NCBI GenBank assembly: GCA_021800365.1
Contig: JAJYZA010000008.1
Coordinates: 1-36,806 of the forward strand
Reading direction: 5' to 3'
From: Nanobdellota archaeon
GTDB lineage: Archaea > Nanobdellota > Nanobdellia > Parvarchaeales > Parvarchaeaceae
DNA length: 36,806 nt
Shown: one piece after another, positions 73 to 33,779 of the stretch
Layout: every line of letters starts with the position of its first letter
How positions within the stretch are numbered: position 1 is the first letter of the stretch
Program-made: the position numbers and the translations under genes
Notes under the pieces: model-generated
Told to the model about the DNA's origin: nothing
Databases searched by the model: none
Seen by the model: the letters and a program-made list of their open reading frames with translations, nothing else

Positions 73-1965
73 TTACTTACGCTTTCTTACTGAATTCTTG
101 CCAATTTTTGGGGATCGTGGTATTAATTTATTCCTCTTTAGGATCCTAAACAGCTTATACTCATATATCACACCGGCTATAACCGCTCCGATAGCGATTC
201 CGAGGATGATGTCCTTAAGGTCCTGAAGCGTAAATACTGTAGCTGCCGGTACTTGAAGTGGCTGAAATGTTAAGCTGTACGGAAGCGACGACGAATTTAT
301 TAAATCCTTCTCGAAGTCAGTATATACTCTCGCGAATGATTCGTATTGTACGTAGAGATACGCAGAGTAGTTTACGTAGCTCTCGCCGAGTTGATAATAA
401 CTTATTCCGAGAAATGGCGTTACTCCGGCATTTTCTGCACTATTTATTAGTCTAAGCGCAGAATCTGCAATCTGATTTTCGACCTGCGTTTCCGAACCGT
501 TAATTACTATGCTATTCTCCTCTATTATAAGTTCGGCTGTAGCCGTTGCCTCGAGAGAATCAAAGATTGAAGAAACGTAGTGGCCACTATTCTGATAAGT
601 TTGGGCCTTACTAAAGTACGAATTCATTAAGTTTATATCCGATAAATAGGGCGCTCCTAATAAAATTGCGTAATTAACGAGGGACGCTGCGCGATATAGA
701 TAATAATTGCTCATATTATAATATGAAGATTCTGAGAAATTGGAATTACCCTCGGGTAATATTGATACCCAAAATAGCGCTGATGCACGTTTTACCTCTG
801 CAAGAGAATAATTTGAGACCGCATTGAAAGAATTTACATTTGCTTCCGATTTTGAGATATTGAGATAAAACGAGGCCTGATTTAAACGGTCTATCGCTAT
901 GAGTTTAAGCTCAAGCGTTGAAGAATTTGTCAAATAGCTCCCCGTTATTTTATTGTAGGTATTCTGTATCGATCCATTCTCGGCTGAAATCAGGTTGGAT
1001 ATAAAACTAGACGGATCACTAGCCGTAGACAATTGTTCGAGGGTATCTGCGTAGACCAGGTCTAATGCGGAGGCCACTACGTCACTTGCCGCGACATAAT
1101 ATTTTCCCGAAGCAGTTAGATTTTTCTCCTGCTGCATTAAGCTAAGAGCAGCGCTTATAGAGCCATTTATTGTAGAATTTGAGCTCGTTTTTGATGGCAA
1201 AGAGTTATAGATATTCTGTTGATAGGCATTAAACTGCTGATACGTATGTTCCATCAAAGAGTTATATAGTGGTGTATAAATGCTATAATTTAACGGTGGC
1301 GTGGCATTGTAACCTCCTGTAAAATAATTAAAAGCCTGGTATATCGAATTTACTGCTATAGGGATCATCCCTAGGTTTTCATCGTATGATAGTGCGGCGA
1401 AGGTTATATTGTCCTGAGTAGGTTCATTCGAGGGATATAAGAAGATCTTTATACCTTGATTAGCGGCCGCCTCACTTTTTGCGGCAACGCCTCCGACAAT
1501 ACCAATGCTCCCGTCTGGATTAGCGGTTCCGGTCATCGCAACTTGAGAGTCCAATGGCTTATGTGCCAGAACCGACATAGCAGCAATAGTAAAGGCTGCT
1601 CCGGCGCTAGGTCCGCTTATGTTGGCCGAAGACGAGGAGATATAGTAATAAAAGTTATAGTCATTGCAATTTAAATTTAGTAACTCGCAAGCTACCGAAA
1701 CTGATACTACGGCTTGTGCCTGAGTATCGGCGCCTGCCAGGGGGGTCGAACCAAGAAAAACCCGCCCAGTGCCATTTGTAACGGTTAAAGATAACTGCGC
1801 CGGTACACCGACTTCCGTGCCATTTTGAATTGTTACCCCAAAGATGTATAAACTCGTTTGCCCGATTTCCGGTATCTGAGCGGATGACCCTGTTGCAAAT
1901 ACAAAATATACTGACGATAAAAATAGTAAAGCGATTAACGGGATAACCAAGTAGCTTAATCTCAT
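73..1965 (-). CDS. Membrane-anchored Lon-like (S16) serine protease without ATPase domain
   Basis: Predicted cell-surface peptidase of the archaeal Lon-like group lacking an AAA+ module. An N-terminal hydrophobic segment is followed by an S16-like domain. Numbering from the ATG at 1965, the nucleophile is Ser120 in GPSAGAAF and the general base Lys163 in GGVAAKSEAA. Their 43-residue spacing equals that of the E. coli Lon Ser-Lys dyad (679/722). A long helical, Asn/Ser-rich region with many N-x-S/T sequons follows, and a membrane segment (DIILGIAIGAVIAGVIYEY) and a basic tail end the protein. So the bulk lies outside and the basic C-terminus inside. An ATG at 1998 is in frame, but a TATA box (TTTATAAA, 1988-1995) lies between the two ATGs, 26 bp from the ATG at 1965, which favours a leaderless start there. 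Substrate unknown. Confidence 0.82.
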   Translation of the reverse strand: MRLSYLVIPLIALLFLSSVYFVFATGSSAQIPEIGQTSLYIFGVTIQNGTEVGVPAQLSLTVTNGTGRVFLGSTPLAGADTQAQAVVSVSVACELLNLNCNDYNFYYYISSSSANISGPSAGAAFTIAAMSVLAHKPLDSQVAMTGTANPDGSIGIVGGVAAKSEAAANQGIKIFLYPSNEPTQDNITFAALSYDENLGMIPIAVNSIYQAFNYFTGGYNATPPLNYSIYTPLYNSLMEHTYQQFNAYQQNIYNSLPSKTSSNSTINGSISAALSLMQQEKNLTASGKYYVAASDVVASALDLVYADTLEQLSTASDPSSFISNLISAENGSIQNTYNKITGSYLTNSSTLELKLIAIDRLNQASFYLNISKSEANVNSFNAVSNYSLAEVKRASALFWVSILPEGNSNFSESSYYNMSNYYLYRAASLVNYAILLGAPYLSDINLMNSYFSKAQTYQNSGHYVSSIFDSLEATATAELIIEENSIVINGSETQVENQIADSALRLINSAENAGVTPFLGISYYQLGESYVNYSAYLYVQYESFARVYTDFEKDLINSSSLPYSLTFQPLQVPAATVFTLQDLKDIILGIAIGAVIAGVIYEYKLFRILKRNKLIPRSPKIGKNSVRKRK

Positions 1966-2037
1966 AGGTATTAGTAATAAGGTCGGATTTATAAACATTT
2001 CTTTGAATTTTCAGACTTATTACAAATAAAGTCTCGA

Positions 2038-2335: not shown

Positions 2336-3163
2336 TTATTTCTTTTCTAGTGACATGCGTGCCTTTTCTACATCGTCCTTTGATTTTACATGGACCCAAT
2401 TCCCGTTATAAAGATAGCCATAAAGCAATCCCTCACGCGCGAGCAGCGGTAGAAGATCTTTCCTTATGTCCCACGCCATCTCCCCGGGCGGTATATACTT
2501 AAATACTTCTTTATCAAAAATAAAAATTGATGTTGGAACGAACTTTGATTTAATCAGGGTCGATAGGCGCTCATACGCGACAACGCGATTGCCTTTTATA
2601 ACTAGCTTGTCTTTTACTTCTTCCGTATGTTCACCGAGAGTTGAAATCGCAATAGACGCTACGCTATTATGTGACGCGTGAAATCGTAACATATCCTTCA
2701 AATCTAGATCAAAAATGGCATCGCCAGGAACAAAAAGGGTCGTAGATCCGACGTATTGTTTAACTCGTTCAAGGGCCTTTGCGCTGCCATTCAGGCTGTT
2801 ATCATCGACGTACTTTATGTCGACGCCGTACCCTTCTCCGTTTTTTAGAAGTTTAAATGTATCTTTAAGGAGGTCTGTTTGCCCGGATATAAAGATATTC
2901 CTAAAACCGCTTAGTCTTAGATTATTTATGGTGTTTTCTATGATAGAAGAGCCGTTTATTTTTAGTAAAGATCTATACGTATTGATACCATCCAACATAA
3001 AGTTTCCACCGCACAGTATTATCGCAGTGTGTTGTCTCTCAAAGAATTTTCTAAGTATATCTTCAACGGCTTCACTTTTTGATCTATAAGTTATGTTATC
3101 GACTACTGAGTCCAATTTGGATAATACGTCTGCTTCTATCGTGAAGGATGCCCTAGTTTTCAT
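2336..3163 (-). CDS. Ribbon-helix-helix DNA-binding domain fused to a nucleotidyltransferase-like domain
   Basis: Residues 1-44 look like an RHH/CopG DNA-binding domain: a strand (RASFTIEADVLSKLD) then SKSEAVEDILRKFFER. Residues 46-275 follow the sugar-1-phosphate nucleotidyltransferase pattern: TAIILCGG, SIIENTINNL, the metal-site-like GD (VPGDAIFDLDLKDML, residues 147-148), TSIFIFDKEVF and a C-terminal GNWVHVKSKDDVEKA. The usual GxGTR...PKP loop is replaced by GGNFMLDGINTYRSLLKI, lacking the signature Arg and Lys, and no EKP is seen. It may be a sugar-nucleotide-sensing repressor rather than an active enzyme (inference). The ATG at 3163 is 24 bp from a TATA element (3183-3192), supporting a leaderless start. 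The neighbours do not reveal a pathway. Confidence 0.8.
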   Translation of the reverse strand: MKTRASFTIEADVLSKLDSVVDNITYRSKSEAVEDILRKFFERQHTAIILCGGNFMLDGINTYRSLLKINGSSIIENTINNLRLSGFRNIFISGQTDLLKDTFKLLKNGEGYGVDIKYVDDNSLNGSAKALERVKQYVGSTTLFVPGDAIFDLDLKDMLRFHASHNSVASIAISTLGEHTEEVKDKLVIKGNRVVAYERLSTLIKSKFVPTSIFIFDKEVFKYIPPGEMAWDIRKDLLPLLAREGLLYGYLYNGNWVHVKSKDDVEKARMSLEKK

Positions 3164-3263
3164 ACAGTAAATATAAGAGCGGTTTTATATTTAACTTTAT
3201 TAACGCGAACTAAAGCTTTTTATACCGATACTTATTTATAATTAATAGATTCTATTGAAATTT

Positions 3264-3878
3264 ATGGATGAAATAAAAACCGGCACCACGACACTCGGAT
3301 TAATTTATAAAGATGGCGTTGTACTTGCCGCAGATAAGAGAGTTACGGCGGGAAATCTCGTCTTCAGCCATTTCGAAAAAATCGACAGGTTGAGCAATAG
3401 CATTGGAGTAACAATAGCTGGTTCGGTTGCGGACGTACAGGCCCTTGTGAAGATAATGAAGTCTGAAATCGCTTTGTATGAAGTACGTTCGGGAACTAAA
3501 ATGAATACGCAAGCCGCGGCTGGTCTATTTGCGACGATACTTTTTAATAATAGATTCTCACTTGTACCAAGCGGATTCATAATCGGCGGTTACGATGTCG
3601 CTCCAGAAATTTATAGTCTTGACACTGCCGGATCAAAAATACCAAGTAAATATACTTCCAGTGGTAGCGGTAGCGTAATAACTCTTGGCGTATTAGAATC
3701 GGAATACCAGGACAATCTAGATTTTAATAGTGCCGTCAAACTTGCACATAGAGCAATTTCGACATCTATAAAAAGAGACGTGTATACTGGTGACGGAATC
3801 GACATAGTCATTATAGATAAACTTGGTTATAGAAAACTTACGGAACAAGAAATAACCAAAATCTTGGCACAGAAATAA
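3264..3878 (+). CDS. psmB: 20S proteasome beta subunit
   Basis: Catalytic subunit of the archaeal 20S proteasome. A seven-residue propeptide (MDEIKTG) would be removed before Thr8, giving the mature N-terminus TTTLGLIYKDGVVLAADKR. The Lys of LAADKR corresponds to the catalytic Lys33, and SGSGS and GDGIDIVIIDK match conserved regions of the Thermoplasma enzyme. Length 204 aa is normal. A TTG at 3255 would add three residues, but the TATA element TTTATAAT (3235-3242) is 25 bp before the ATG at 3264, so a leaderless ATG start is preferred. The next gene is the aCPSF1 nuclease; psmB and aCPSF1 are also neighbours in Methanocaldococcus (MJ1237/MJ1236). No alpha subunit is in this window. Confidence 0.96.
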   Translation: MDEIKTGTTTLGLIYKDGVVLAADKRVTAGNLVFSHFEKIDRLSNSIGVTIAGSVADVQALVKIMKSEIALYEVRSGTKMNTQAAAGLFATILFNNRFSLVPSGFIIGGYDVAPEIYSLDTAGSKIPSKYTSSGSGSVITLGVLESEYQDNLDFNSAVKLAHRAISTSIKRDVYTGDGIDIVIIDKLGYRKLTEQEITKILAQK

Positions 3879-28765: not shown

Positions 28766-30532
28766 TCAACCGAACCCTTCCTGTCTTATTGTATCCATCG
28801 CACCCCCCTCGATTATTTTTATTCCCTCGGGAAGATACTTTGTAAATGCACTCGATCTAAAGCGCGAATCCATCAGGAGAACTATAGCCCTGTCTTCTGC
28901 TGACCTGATCCCTCTTCCAGCGGCCTGCATCGTCTTTACCATTGATGGAAGTATCTGTGCATATTCGAAGCCTTTCGAGAATTTCTTCTCATAATATGCC
29001 TGCAGTGCCTTGAGTCTTATCGATGGTGGTTCGAATGGCACGCCCACTATCACAATCAATCTCACTATATTGTTCTTCACGCCGATGCTTTCTGAAAAAT
29101 TTCCACCGATTACTGCAAAAAGACATTTACCTGGCTTTGACAGGGTTGAAATGATCCTTTGCTTTTCTTCCCGGTCGAGTTTCGGCGATTCCTTTATTAC
29201 TCCATCCTTATGCTGCAGCAGATCGAAAATCGATCCCATAAAACTGTAGGACGGAAAGAAGACTATGGAATTATGCTTAAATCCGTTCAATAGTTCATCA
29301 ATGCGCTCGGCTATAAGACCAAACTGTAGAGCCCGGCTGGTGAATTTAGTCGTTATGTCCGTCTCATTTATTATGACCCTGTTGTTTTTTAACGTCTCAT
29401 CTTCGATGACGACCTTCTTCGCGTCTGGTATTCCCAAAAGATCTGCAAACGTGTCCATAGGCTTGAAAGTCCCGCTTATAAGAATCGACGAATAAAAGGA
29501 ATTTATTGCGCTGCCAGCATATGCGGACGGGTCGAGCGAAGAGATATTGATCTTTATTCTGCCGCCTTCGTTTGACGCATACTTTACATATGATTCGTCT
29601 GCTTTCAAAAGAAGCGTTACGAATTTACCCAAAGTGAAAGAAGCAGGGACATTGTACCCTTTTTCATTCGCTTCTACGATAGAAGAAATTGTCTCCATAT
29701 CCTGCTGCCTAAATATGCCATCCAGCTCAAGAAGCGCTTCTGTTGTTACAGACCGCGCTTTTGAAATCAGGACGTCTATCTTGCTTGCCAATGCCAGTTC
29801 TTTTGCTGCTAATGCCTCTTCATATGCTTTCTCTAATGTTCGCTCTGATATGGAAAATGAGTTCATGTCTATTATTCTGCTGTGAAGATTGTGCGCTTCG
29901 TCGATTACCATGATAGTTTTCTCCGGGGCGATGCCGACCTTTGACATGAAGCTGCCTGAAATCCCGGAATCGAACACGTGCATGTAATTTGCGATGATTA
30001 CGTCTGAATTTCTCGCGTTTAAAATAGATAATTCATATGGGCATACCTCAAATTTCCTGCCGGCGGCCATTACGGATTCCGGATCCGATATCCCTTCGCT
30101 TAAAGCTTCTAATGCTCTCGGCTTTATTTCCTTCGTCTTCGAAAGCGTATTCCTGTAAAAATCGCACATGCCCTGCTCTCTGACCGCGCGGCAAAATTCC
30201 GTAAACAACTGCGGCTCTACATTGTTCTCGAACAGGCACATCGACCTTTTCCCGTTTATCCCTGTAAAGGTTATTTTTTCGTTGGACGCATTATTCATTT
30301 TCCTTAAGGTGTCGTATACTATACTCTGGTGCGTATGTTTAGCTGTTAGGAAAATGATCCTTAAACCGGATTCTTTTGCCGCCAAAAGTGCGGCGTACAA
30401 GACCGGCGCGGTCTTTCCCATCCCGGTTGAGGCATGCAGCATCAGTTTTTCGCGATTGGCTACCGCGCCTTGTATCGCATTTATTATCTTATCCTGGCCG
30501 GGCCTAAGTCCCGAAAAAGGAAAGGAAACCAT
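28766..30532 (-). CDS. XPD/Rad3-like Fe-S DNA helicase
   Basis: Superfamily 2 DNA helicase of the XPD/DinG group. Q-like GLRPGQDKII, Walker A HASTGMGKT (Lys40), DEAH box at 211-214 (MVIDEAHNLH), four Cys fitting the 4Fe-4S domain (Cys99, Cys114, Cys123, Cys164), and motif VI TMQAAGRGIRSAEDRAIVLL. SGTFKPMD and FFPSYSFM lie in HD2. Length 588 aa is close to archaeal XPD. Starts 3 bp after the stop of the HerA-like gene with no clear SD, so translation is probably coupled. Role in repair or replication (family). Confidence 0.93.
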   Translation of the reverse strand: MVSFPFSGLRPGQDKIINAIQGAVANREKLMLHASTGMGKTAPVLYAALLAAKESGLRIIFLTAKHTHQSIVYDTLRKMNNASNEKITFTGINGKRSMCLFENNVEPQLFTEFCRAVREQGMCDFYRNTLSKTKEIKPRALEALSEGISDPESVMAAGRKFEVCPYELSILNARNSDVIIANYMHVFDSGISGSFMSKVGIAPEKTIMVIDEAHNLHSRIIDMNSFSISERTLEKAYEEALAAKELALASKIDVLISKARSVTTEALLELDGIFRQQDMETISSIVEANEKGYNVPASFTLGKFVTLLLKADESYVKYASNEGGRIKINISSLDPSAYAGSAINSFYSSILISGTFKPMDTFADLLGIPDAKKVVIEDETLKNNRVIINETDITTKFTSRALQFGLIAERIDELLNGFKHNSIVFFPSYSFMGSIFDLLQHKDGVIKESPKLDREEKQRIISTLSKPGKCLFAVIGGNFSESIGVKNNIVRLIVIVGVPFEPPSIRLKALQAYYEKKFSKGFEYAQILPSMVKTMQAAGRGIRSAEDRAIVLLMDSRFRSSAFTKYLPEGIKIIEGGAMDTIRQEGFG

Positions 30533-30535
30533 AAT

Positions 30536-31843
30536 CTATTTCTTTGGCGGCGGTATAGAACGGGGCGTTTCTCCACCATGCCACGTCAATCTCGGCTTTA
30601 TTTGAACGGGGTAGATGCGCTCAGAGTTGTCGTCTAATATTATACATGCACCCGGCATGCGTGGAAGGTCCATAAGATACTTCCTTATGTCAGATGCCAT
30701 GTAAATCTGCATGACCGTATTCAGCGCTTCTATATCGAGTTTCGCCGTTACGTGCTGAGAGATTATCAGATCTGATTGCGTTATTATATCCGTATCTAAT
30801 TTACCTGGTTGTTGCGTGGCTATAACAAGCCCGATACCGGGCTGTCTTCCTTCTTTTATAACGCGTGAAAGAGCGGCGCTTGCTGCGGTCCTGCCATTTG
30901 CCGGCAGGAATTCATGAACTTCGTCTATGAATAGCCAAACAATCGGGATCTCCTTCTTGGAGTTCTCTTCCTTCACCATAACGGTCGCATTAATCTCTTT
31001 TAATTCTTCGGAACGGCGCTCTATCGTACGCATTTCTAGGATCTTTTGTGAGATTAGCCCTATGACGAGAGCGCGCAGATTGAATTCGCCAAGAGAGTGC
31101 GCATAAAGACTTATATCCAGAATGTTTATGTATCCCGGCGCCAAAAGGTCCGATATCGGCGTGCCGTATTTCTCGAATATCCCCCAGCCTTTGGCCGTTT
31201 CAAATCGCTGTTTACAAGCTTCCTTTACAGTATCGGTCGCTATCTGCCTGTCTATTTCGTTTATTATGTCTGGAATGCCATACTTGCTATTTGTTTCCGA
31301 TAGCTGTTCTATAACCTTGTTTATCAGCACTCCAAATTCATCGTTTATTGAAAAATTAAACATGTCGGACCAGTCGCTCGCTGATAAATCTGAAACTGTA
31401 ATAGAAAACGCACCGTCCGCCATCCCGGGATTTTGTTCTTTTATGGCGTCGAAAGAACCTCTCGGTACGAATACCTTCACATTGCTGAATGCTTTTGGTT
31501 CTTCGCCCCAGTCTTTCAGGATATTCACTTCCTTGTAATTTGGACTTTTCATAGTCCAGTATATCCCCATCGTGTCTATTATAAGAGAAGTTACGTTCTG
31601 TGAAACTTCCTGTGGCAGGGAAGCCAAGCCCTCGGCTATTACTCCCATAGTATAACTTTTTCCGGAGCCTCTCTTTCCGGCGATAAGTACGACGTGCGGC
31701 CTTAGTGCATCTAGAAGAATCTGGTTGCCTAAGCTTACGACATTGCCCATCGTTATATATTGTTTTCCAATAAAGGTGGTAGCGAGATCACCATAAGTTC
31801 CAAGGTCTTTCTCGTTCCTCCCGATTATAACATTATAAGACAT
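30536..31843 (-). CDS. HerA-like ATPase/helicase
   Basis: HerA/FtsK-superfamily ATPase (DUF87). A short N-terminal HAS-barrel-like part (IGRNEKDLGTYGDLATTFIG) precedes Walker A IAGKRGSGKSYTMGVIAEGL (Lys62), VTSLIIDTMGIYWTM, Walker B VWLFIDEVHEFLP, sensor LVIATQQPG and DLIISQHVTAKLD. The C-terminal tail is Pro-rich (SIPPPKK). HerA normally works with the nuclease NurA in end resection; no NurA is in this window. It precedes the XPD-like gene by 3 bp, and a TATA-like GATAAATT (31865-31872) is 25 bp from the ATG. Confidence 0.9.
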   Translation of the reverse strand: MSYNVIIGRNEKDLGTYGDLATTFIGKQYITMGNVVSLGNQILLDALRPHVVLIAGKRGSGKSYTMGVIAEGLASLPQEVSQNVTSLIIDTMGIYWTMKSPNYKEVNILKDWGEEPKAFSNVKVFVPRGSFDAIKEQNPGMADGAFSITVSDLSASDWSDMFNFSINDEFGVLINKVIEQLSETNSKYGIPDIINEIDRQIATDTVKEACKQRFETAKGWGIFEKYGTPISDLLAPGYINILDISLYAHSLGEFNLRALVIGLISQKILEMRTIERRSEELKEINATVMVKEENSKKEIPIVWLFIDEVHEFLPANGRTAASAALSRVIKEGRQPGIGLVIATQQPGKLDTDIITQSDLIISQHVTAKLDIEALNTVMQIYMASDIRKYLMDLPRMPGACIILDDNSERIYPVQIKPRLTWHGGETPRSIPPPKK

Positions 31844-31892: not shown

Positions 31893-33356
31893 TCAACGGT
31901 ATAACCCTTCTGGCGTCTTAACCGGTTTTTTATTAGTATATTCTTCAAGTGCCCGGACATATGTAGAAAATGGCGGCACTGAAGCCGTTTTTATACCGTG
32001 TTCTATTAAATATTTTACGTGTTCGGTCGTAGCTATAGTTGCTATGTTATCGATATCGCGGCCGGTCGATCCTTCATTCATCCTTTTTGCAAGATCTTCT
32101 ATGCATTGTAGCGTAAGACCTGGTGCGTGGATCTTCCATATCTCTATCCTATCCTCTAAAGAAGGGGGCGGAAATAAAATCTTGTCTTTAAACCGCTGAA
32201 ATATAGCGTCATCTAATTCGTCTGTGCGATTGGTGGCACCTATCAAAAGAAGATTATGATTTTTCTTGTCCGTTTTAAGTCCCTCAATTTTTGTCAGAAG
32301 TGTGAGTATGACCCGGTTATCCTCCTTGTCTGAACCGGTATCCTCCGTAGTTCTTTTTCCAAAATAATCCATCTCATCTATAAAAAGAATTGCTTTCTTT
32401 TCTTTGCTGTAATCTTCTATGTAGCTGAGCGCTTCTCCCAGTTTCCTCTGCGTTTCACTATACCATTTTGTAAATACTTTCTGCAAATTGATGTAAAAAA
32501 AAGTTATTCCCTGTTCTTTTGCTATCGCTTTCGCCATCAGGGTCTTACCCGTGCCTGGCGGACCATAAAACAATACGGCGTTCATTGAACTCTCATAGCC
32601 TTTTGTTCTGCTAAGTTTGATCACTTCGTCAAACAACTCCCTGTTTAAAAATGGATAGAATACGTCTCTCTTGATCTTCTCTTTTACATCCTTGTAACCG
32701 CCCACATTCTCAACGCCTATTTCGCTCGTATAGATTTCCAGGCCAAGGTCTCCCGTGGTATCCGTTATTTTTTCATTGGATAACAATGCCTCTAGTCTTA
32801 CTGAATCGGCCACCGTATATTTCCACAAGAATAAAAACGCGTCGACCGGCTTTCCTTTTGTAGCATAATCGCTCCCGAATCTGAAACTAAGTGTCCCGGT
32901 TTCCTGCCCAAATCTTTTTGTATAATCGAATCTAAATAGCTCTGAATCATCAAAAAATGATTTGCCTATGAATGACGAAACTGTCTGTTTTTCCTGTGCG
33001 TCTATCTGAACGTCGATATAATGTGTAAAAGAGTTCCCTGACAATAGCATTTCTTTCAAGCCGATCGTCAATATATAGTTGATAGCAACTGAAATGCGCT
33101 CATATTCGTTTTGAGTGGTATCGCATAATGTAGTAACGAGGAGCATGTCCTTGTCCTCTCCCCTCAGTTTATAGCACTGCGGCGTAATCAGCGCCTCTAG
33201 CTTAGATGCCCCATATTTGCTTTTAAGACCAGATAGATATGGGTTGGAATCTAATTCAAAGGCTATCCTCTTTTTAATCTCTTCTCTTGTCTTATCAAGA
33301 ACATCTACTTCAGTCGGAACAAGCGCAGTACTAGTATCCTCCTTATCTTTTTCCAT
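31893..33356 (-). CDS. AAA+ ATPase with unrecognised N-terminal domain and C-terminal LYR (copy B)
   Basis: Paralogue of the AAA+ gene at 12457. Residues 1-210 form an unrecognised domain (EIKKRIAFELDSNPYLSGL; VTTLCDTTQNEYERISVAIN; DAFLFLWKYTVADSVRLEAL). The AAA+ core begins at VENVGGYKDVKEKIKRD. Walker A is GPPGTGKT (265-272), pore loop FTKWYSETQRKL with Ser where copy A has Gly, Walker B ILFIDEMD (Asp327, Glu328), GATN sensor, GRDIDNIATIAT sensor 2. The last three residues are Leu485-Tyr486-Arg487, the hydrophobic-Tyr-X pattern by which PAN opens the 20S gate (PAN also ends in LYR). So a proteasome-linked unfoldase is a reasonable hypothesis; N-terminal coiled coils and OB fold of PAN are not evident. 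Confidence 0.85.
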   Translation of the reverse strand: MEKDKEDTSTALVPTEVDVLDKTREEIKKRIAFELDSNPYLSGLKSKYGASKLEALITPQCYKLRGEDKDMLLVTTLCDTTQNEYERISVAINYILTIGLKEMLLSGNSFTHYIDVQIDAQEKQTVSSFIGKSFFDDSELFRFDYTKRFGQETGTLSFRFGSDYATKGKPVDAFLFLWKYTVADSVRLEALLSNEKITDTTGDLGLEIYTSEIGVENVGGYKDVKEKIKRDVFYPFLNRELFDEVIKLSRTKGYESSMNAVLFYGPPGTGKTLMAKAIAKEQGITFFYINLQKVFTKWYSETQRKLGEALSYIEDYSKEKKAILFIDEMDYFGKRTTEDTGSDKEDNRVILTLLTKIEGLKTDKKNHNLLLIGATNRTDELDDAIFQRFKDKILFPPPSLEDRIEIWKIHAPGLTLQCIEDLAKRMNEGSTGRDIDNIATIATTEHVKYLIEHGIKTASVPPFSTYVRALEEYTNKKPVKTPEGLYR

Positions 33357-33413: not shown

Positions 33414-33779
33414 TTACTCTTTCGAAGGTATTTTTCTTGGATCGCCGTACACCTTTTTCTTATCATATCTTTTATCCAGTTCTTTCATCTTCGATACAAA
33501 AGCTTCCTCTAAATCAAAACCTGCTTGATCAGCGATGGAAAGACAGGCAAGGAATACGTCGGCAGTCTCGTTCTTTATCTTTTTAAGGAAAACGGTATCT
33601 TCTTTATTTAATATTTTCTTGTCTAAAGCCCTTTCGTTTTGCCACAGGAAAAGTTCAAGAAGCTCATTCGCCTCGACTGATGCGTTCATGGCAAGTTCCT
33701 TTGTAGTCTGGAACCGGCGCCAGTCCCTTTCATCGATAAATCTTTTTACTAGTTTCTGTAATTTCCGTAAGTCGGTCAT
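33414..33779 (-). CDS. MazG-like nucleotide pyrophosphohydrolase
   Basis: Short all-alpha NTP pyrophosphatase of the MazG/RS21-C6 group (121 aa). The first metal-site helix is FQTTKELAMNASVEANELLE (E-x-x-E pattern) and the second is ETADVFLACLSIADQAGFD (E-x-x-D). KMKELDKRY followed by DPRKIP matches the C-terminal part of dCTP/dNTP pyrophosphatases. Probably cleans up non-canonical dNTPs. TTTTATC (about 33800-33806) is ~25 bp from the ATG, consistent with a leaderless start. Neighbours are the AAA+ copy B downstream and tRNA-Ser upstream. Confidence 0.88.
   Translation of the reverse strand: MTDLRKLQKLVKRFIDERDWRRFQTTKELAMNASVEANELLELFLWQNERALDKKILNKEDTVFLKKIKNETADVFLACLSIADQAGFDLEEAFVSKMKELDKRYDKKKVYGDPRKIPSKE

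Follow-up and report, generated by a model that had tools for sequence, protein, structure and literature searches.

A candidate HbYX proteasomal ATPase outside the PAN family in a PAN-less archaeon with a tiny genome

The AAA+ gene and its locus

In the 36,806-nucleotide stretch of Nanobdellota DNA analysed here (the window), a gene on the minus strand (31893-33356) encodes P0001, a 487-residue AAA+ ATPase and candidate non-PAN HbYX proteasomal ATPase. The original prediction of a protein with a single AAA+ module and a Leu-Tyr-Arg end was borne out: PF00004 matches once, at residues 261-396 (E 7e-33), and the reading frame closes with EGLYR-stop, the Leu-Tyr-Arg lying at 31896-31904 (minus strand) and the stop codon at 31893-31895. 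The AAA module covers residues about 205-475 (31932-32744, minus strand) and carries the Walker A motif GPPGTGKT, the Walker B motif ILFIDEM, the pore loop TKWYSE and a short, Vps4-like SRH, AIFQRFKDKI. It is preceded by a genus-specific N-domain (residues 1-196; 32769-33356, minus strand) and followed by a flexible C-terminal linker with the terminal HbYX (31896-31931, minus strand), as delimited from the sequence, a pLDDT of 39 and conservation. The beta subunit of the 20S proteasome, a putative partner, is encoded in the same window as had been claimed (3255-3878, plus strand; TIGR03634, 205 bits).

P0001 belongs to a conserved MazG-AAA-HerA-XPD block. A gene for a MazG-like pyrophosphohydrolase (33414-33779, minus strand) opens the block, a HerA/DUF87-like ATPase (30536-31843, minus strand) is the downstream neighbour of P0001, and an XPD/Rad3-type helicase (28766-30532, minus strand) closes it. 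Seven further genomes of the genus have the same block, in one of them spread over more than one contig. In these genomes, AAA orthologues are only 32-36% identical to P0001, with 48% for a partial copy in genome G011, while HerA is 76-86% and XPD 57-66% identical; full-length copies of the HerA/DUF87-like ATPase in other genus genomes, 19 in number, show 73-86% identity. The tails of the P0001 orthologues at this locus read FYN, LYG, LYR, LYS, LYS, LYR and IYR. Judged from these sequences, the tail persists at the syntenic locus despite the divergence of the AAA protein. The HerA/DUF87-like ATPase also matches PADLOC mads_8 over nearly its full length (67 bits).

The AAA gene is absent from this position in genome G015, which is 100% complete. 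The gap between MazG and HerA there is about 540 bp; the surroundings of the MazG end are kept, and the sequence then jumps to DTKAPEGIYR-stop, the final codons of the AAA gene, which compare with SAPEGIYR at the end of the G011 protein. It looks as if a P0001 orthologue was deleted here and left a scar (L226:3000-3760), which suggests that the AAA gene can be lost. The slot is variable elsewhere as well, both between MazG and HerA (L187, L188 and L227) and between MazG and the AAA gene (L198). Its contents include a NYN-domain gene (G017), an unrelated reading frame that replaces the AAA gene (G014) and a 141-residue reading frame (G005), and in G022 an IS605-type HTH gene stands beside the AAA gene.

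A paralogue of P0001, which the original prediction had not mentioned, is encoded in the same window. P0002 (12457-14031, plus strand; 524 residues) has the same architecture, ends in Gly-Tyr-Ser and lies directly upstream of aEF-2; the two proteins are 40% identical over the AAA module. Other family members are found beside PEPCK (identified in L192, with a neighbour of equal size in L190 and L193-L196), EF-2 (P0002 and L043), an AlaX/enolase/S2 block (L200) and Cdc48 (L199). A functional tie of the AAA gene to the HerA/XPD block was considered and rejected, as members elsewhere adjoin PEPCK, EF-2 or Cdc48; for the same reason the neighbourhood offers no shared clue to function.

A family confined to one genus and its N-domain

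Members of the family were detected in 18 of 28 genomes of the genus, at several loci and with at most two per genome. None was found outside the genus in the 74 genomes searched, where the other matches were Cdc48 or PAN. One member, L091 (a record of genome G010), was found among generic AAA proteins in a scan of genome contigs. Since the remaining 10 genus genomes, including one that is 100% complete, lack a detected member, the family is not essential. Other members are 26-48% identical to P0001.

In a tree of AAA modules, a single branch (99/99), recovered in 100% of bootstraps, sets all 22 family rows apart from PAN (100/99) and from both Cdc48 D1 and Cdc48 D2. The family is monophyletic and separate from PAN and Cdc48. 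The tree holds one very long outside row, and its deeper branching order is not trustworthy. The single CdvC row, recovered with a chimeric query in which a stretch of CdvC was joined to P0001, sits on a long branch, and its position apart from the family is tentative.

The Walker A and B motifs, the sensor region and the aromatic pore loop are intact in the family. Against solved structures, the family profile found its best single modules in Cdc48 D2 (191.8 bits) and CdvC (4lcb, 189.4 bits), and the AAA model of P0001 superposes on the PAN ATPase domain 3h4m with a TM score of 0.85 by target length (2.9 A). Relative to PAN and Cdc48, the SRH lacks two residues and resembles that of Vps4/CdvC (LDxAxxxRF). 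The pore loop of P0001, KWYS, had been called unusual, which overstated the case: it is an ordinary aromatic-hydrophobic-Gly loop with Ser for Gly. At the same position orthologues have KWYG, MWYG, HWYG, KYYS, KFYS or KWLG, and most family members follow the pattern K-aromatic-x-G/S.

The N-domain comprises about 190 residues, over which other members are just 12-28% identical to P0001. Its AlphaFold2 model (pLDDT 87.6, pTM 0.81) predicts three helices at each end and, between these, a pair of strands, one long helix and another four strands, in that order. An unrecognised and new N-domain had been proposed, and the searches agree with this: the N-terminal 196 or so residues match no Pfam family, the best PDB fold reaches a TM of 0.34 by query length (none exceeding 0.5), nothing above 0.38 by query length appears among the matches listed from PDB and viral structures, and, with a profile run against 279 genomes from the phylum, convincing matches were confined to the genus. 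Five marginal matches outside the genus and one in G015 (E 1e-3 to 1e-2) were treated as chance, because the inspected reading frames lack an AAA-type P-loop ATPase; all but one were inspected, the exception being L181, which has internal stops. In viral contigs there were 43 AAA relatives, and the best four of these 43 lack a Y-X tail. As PADLOC and PHROGs matches were confined to the AAA core, no defence or viral assignment was made. The family and its N-domain thus appear new, although the non-PAN HbYX ATPase as a kind is already known.

The C-terminal tail and the proteasome

Tail statistics were drawn from 22 distinct family members with an intact end. Clustering at 60% identity leaves 18 groups, which means that the count is not that of one near-identical sequence taken repeatedly. 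Tyr occupies position -2 in all 22 (entropy 0 bits), and position -3 is L, M, I, V or F in 18 (Leu 13, Met 2, Phe 1, Ile 1 and Val 1; the others are Ala 2, Ser 1 and Gly 1). Position -1 is mostly Ser or Arg. In the same proteins, positions -6 to -23 vary, with entropies of about 2.5-3.4 bits, and the linker ahead of the tail differs in both length and sequence. The conservation of the P0001 tail is more than chance. HbYX ends occur in about 0.93% of archaeal proteins (PMC11475706), and P0001 is the sole strict HbYX protein among the 34 likely genes of the window. The last residues of its model (479-487) have low AlphaFold2 confidence, as would be expected of a flexible docking tail.

The hydrophobic residue is not kept throughout. 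The P0002 group lacks it at -3 (GYS, SYS) and retains Tyr; the P0002 orthologue of G011 (L043), also beside EF-2, ends in SYS. Two further family members have Ala at -3. Orthologues without a C-terminal Y-X would have spoken against the original prediction, and none was seen: wherever the end of an orthologue or paralogue is intact, Y-X is present.

The genome that contains the window (G000; 898 kb, 30 contigs, 98.4% complete) encodes both 20S subunits, the alpha gene lying outside the window (G000:C15:92093-92650, minus strand). In this alpha subunit the gate and pocket are conserved in sequence (GYDRAIT, FSPDGRL, QVEYAR, IEKI and SGMIAD), as read from an alignment to the Archaeoglobus alpha subunit solved with PAN, the pocket residues being those generally assigned to it. 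Across the genus, 27 of 28 genomes have proteasome subunits, and every family member occurs in a genome with 20S subunits.

The strong AAA proteins of G000 are Cdc48, P0001, P0002, RFC and RFC-like clamp-loader proteins and LonB. This inventory contains no PAN, the presence of which, together with a disordered and variable tail, had been named as evidence against the prediction, and PAN was also absent from 14 other sampled genomes of the same taxonomic family. Among 111 genomes of the class, matches that include the N-terminal part of PAN were found in 21, all of which lie outside both the genus and the taxonomic family of G000. The proposed search for PAN and VAT gave a divided answer, as PAN is missing, but a two-module Cdc48 (762 residues, ending NYFG) is present, so P0001 is not the sole candidate activator. 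Cdc48, with its own conserved YFG tail, may be the main activator in G000. In the genus, Cdc48 (L001, L036, L037 and L063-L082) ends in [NTSA]YF[GAV], and the PAN proteins of three relatives in the class (L086, L088 and L089) end in MFG. Standard motors here, both Cdc48 and PAN, carry Phe where Tyr is usual, and the new AAA family keeps Tyr.

A proteasomal role and its alternatives

Non-PAN ATPases that engage the archaeal proteasome have been described. Cdc48 and AMA, both HbYX AAA proteins other than PAN, bind archaeal 20S (PMC4192671, a review), as does the non-PAN HbYX ATPase MJ1494, or PAN-2 (PMC11475706). The principle is therefore not new. AMA and MJ1494, from methanogens and Archaeoglobus, resemble the present family as AAA proteins with an HbYX tail and reported 20S binding. 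However, MJ1494 keeps an OB domain (PMC11475706), whereas the N-domain of P0001 matches no solved fold; the family was set beside AMA by published description, and the P0001 N-domain is confined to one genus. With PAN, P0001 shares a single AAA module, a C-terminal HbYX, co-occurrence with archaeal 20S and the AAA fold. In contrast to PAN, the family forms a separate clade with a shorter SRH, the scores are 128-130 bits where the PAN model requires 500, and the coiled coil and OB domain are missing, the N-domain model having no OB match in PDB. Cdc48/VAT is likewise a published non-PAN HbYX activator, and its D2 is the best single-module match, but P0001 has one module instead of two, a different N-domain and a separate clade, and G000 has its own Cdc48. 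On sequence grounds, the family would be counted among HbYX proteasomal ATPases by its tail, the accompanying 20S genes and its catalytic motifs, and it falls outside PAN, Cdc48 and CdvC.

We consider it probable that P0001 is an HbYX unfoldase of the proteasome, accessory in role and specific to its lineage, whose substrate-receptor domain evolves fast and whose tail would dock on 20S. The analysis itself establishes the AAA architecture, the tail conservation, the presence of 20S and absence of PAN, monophyly, the unmatched N-domain model and dispensability in one relative. The proposed role draws on the tail kept amid a divergent protein, the accompanying 20S with its conserved alpha gate and pocket, the missing PAN, the intact catalytic motifs and pore loop, the superposition on the PAN ATPase domain and the published non-PAN precedents. 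The predicted non-PAN activator is to that extent supported, by the conserved Y-X and the missing PAN. P0001 would assemble into a homohexamer or, perhaps together with P0002, into a mixed ring; the fast-evolving N-domain would bind substrates or adaptors, the aromatic pore loop would pull these substrates through the pore and presumably unfold them, and the flexible Leu-Tyr-Arg would insert into the inter-subunit pockets of the 20S alpha ring and open the gate. Weighing against this role are the loss of the hydrophobic residue in the P0002 group, Ala in two members, the Vps4/CdvC-like short SRH, the lack of a PAN-type coiled coil/OB domain, the patchy presence in the genus and the Cdc48 of the same cells with its own conserved tail.

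Some of these features would fit a Vps4/CdvC-like ATPase that remodels protein complexes or membranes, its C-terminal Tyr docking elsewhere and its likeness to HbYX being convergent. The SRH, short by two residues in both, the CdvC profile score close to that of the best Cdc48 module, and the retention of Tyr-X alone in the P0002 group speak for such a remodeller, and the Vps4/CdvC clade is not known for proteolysis. We nevertheless regard it as unlikely: the score is 120 bits where the CdvC model requires 650, no MIT-like N-domain was recognised, the N-domain is predicted to be alpha/beta and not a helical bundle, and no ESCRT-like context was found. In addition, the tree tentatively places the one CdvC sequence, on its long branch, apart from the family, and the main group carries the exact terminal Hb-Y-X, a known 20S signature that is not a CdvC feature.

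Proteasome assembly chaperones also bear HbYX tails, and P0001 could act on the proteasome indirectly, helping its assembly or regulating it and using the HbYX in the manner of Pba1-Pba2, with the large, fast-evolving N-domain as the working part. The intact Walker A/B motifs and pore loop argue instead for an active translocating ring, and relatives without the AAA gene still encode 20S; an indirect role is accordingly improbable. Patchy presence, fast divergence and the G015 scar might also suggest a functionless tail, inherited as a relic in a decaying and dispensable gene family. This seems very improbable given a Tyr that is invariant at 26-48% identity to P0001 next to a variable linker, and given that catalytic motifs are kept and no orthologues with intact catalytic sites and random C-termini were found.

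Should the proposed role hold, it would mean that archaeal proteasomes gain motors specific to a lineage and that the parts of these motors that recognise substrates can change rapidly. The novelty lies in a monophyletic family of one genus, in a PAN-less archaeon with a tiny genome, that combines an N-domain without a matching solved fold, evolving far faster than the neighbouring genes, with a docking tail that is kept. It is also conceivable, though we hold it doubtful, that the genus replaced PAN by paralogous HbYX caps, their rapidly diversifying N-domains serving as interchangeable receptors so that one 20S would serve several specialised motors particular to the lineage, possibly as mixed LYR/GYS rings.

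Two other genes of the window deserve mention. In the 641-residue product of the gene at 73-1998 (minus strand), residues 126-192 match the Lon S16 proteolytic domain; the protein has no AAA domain and shows apparent hydrophobic segments at its N- and C-terminus. The gene at 2336-3163 (minus strand) encodes an unusual fusion, in which a NikR/CopG-like ribbon-helix-helix segment (residues ~3-45) is joined to a sugar-phosphate nucleotidyltransferase domain.
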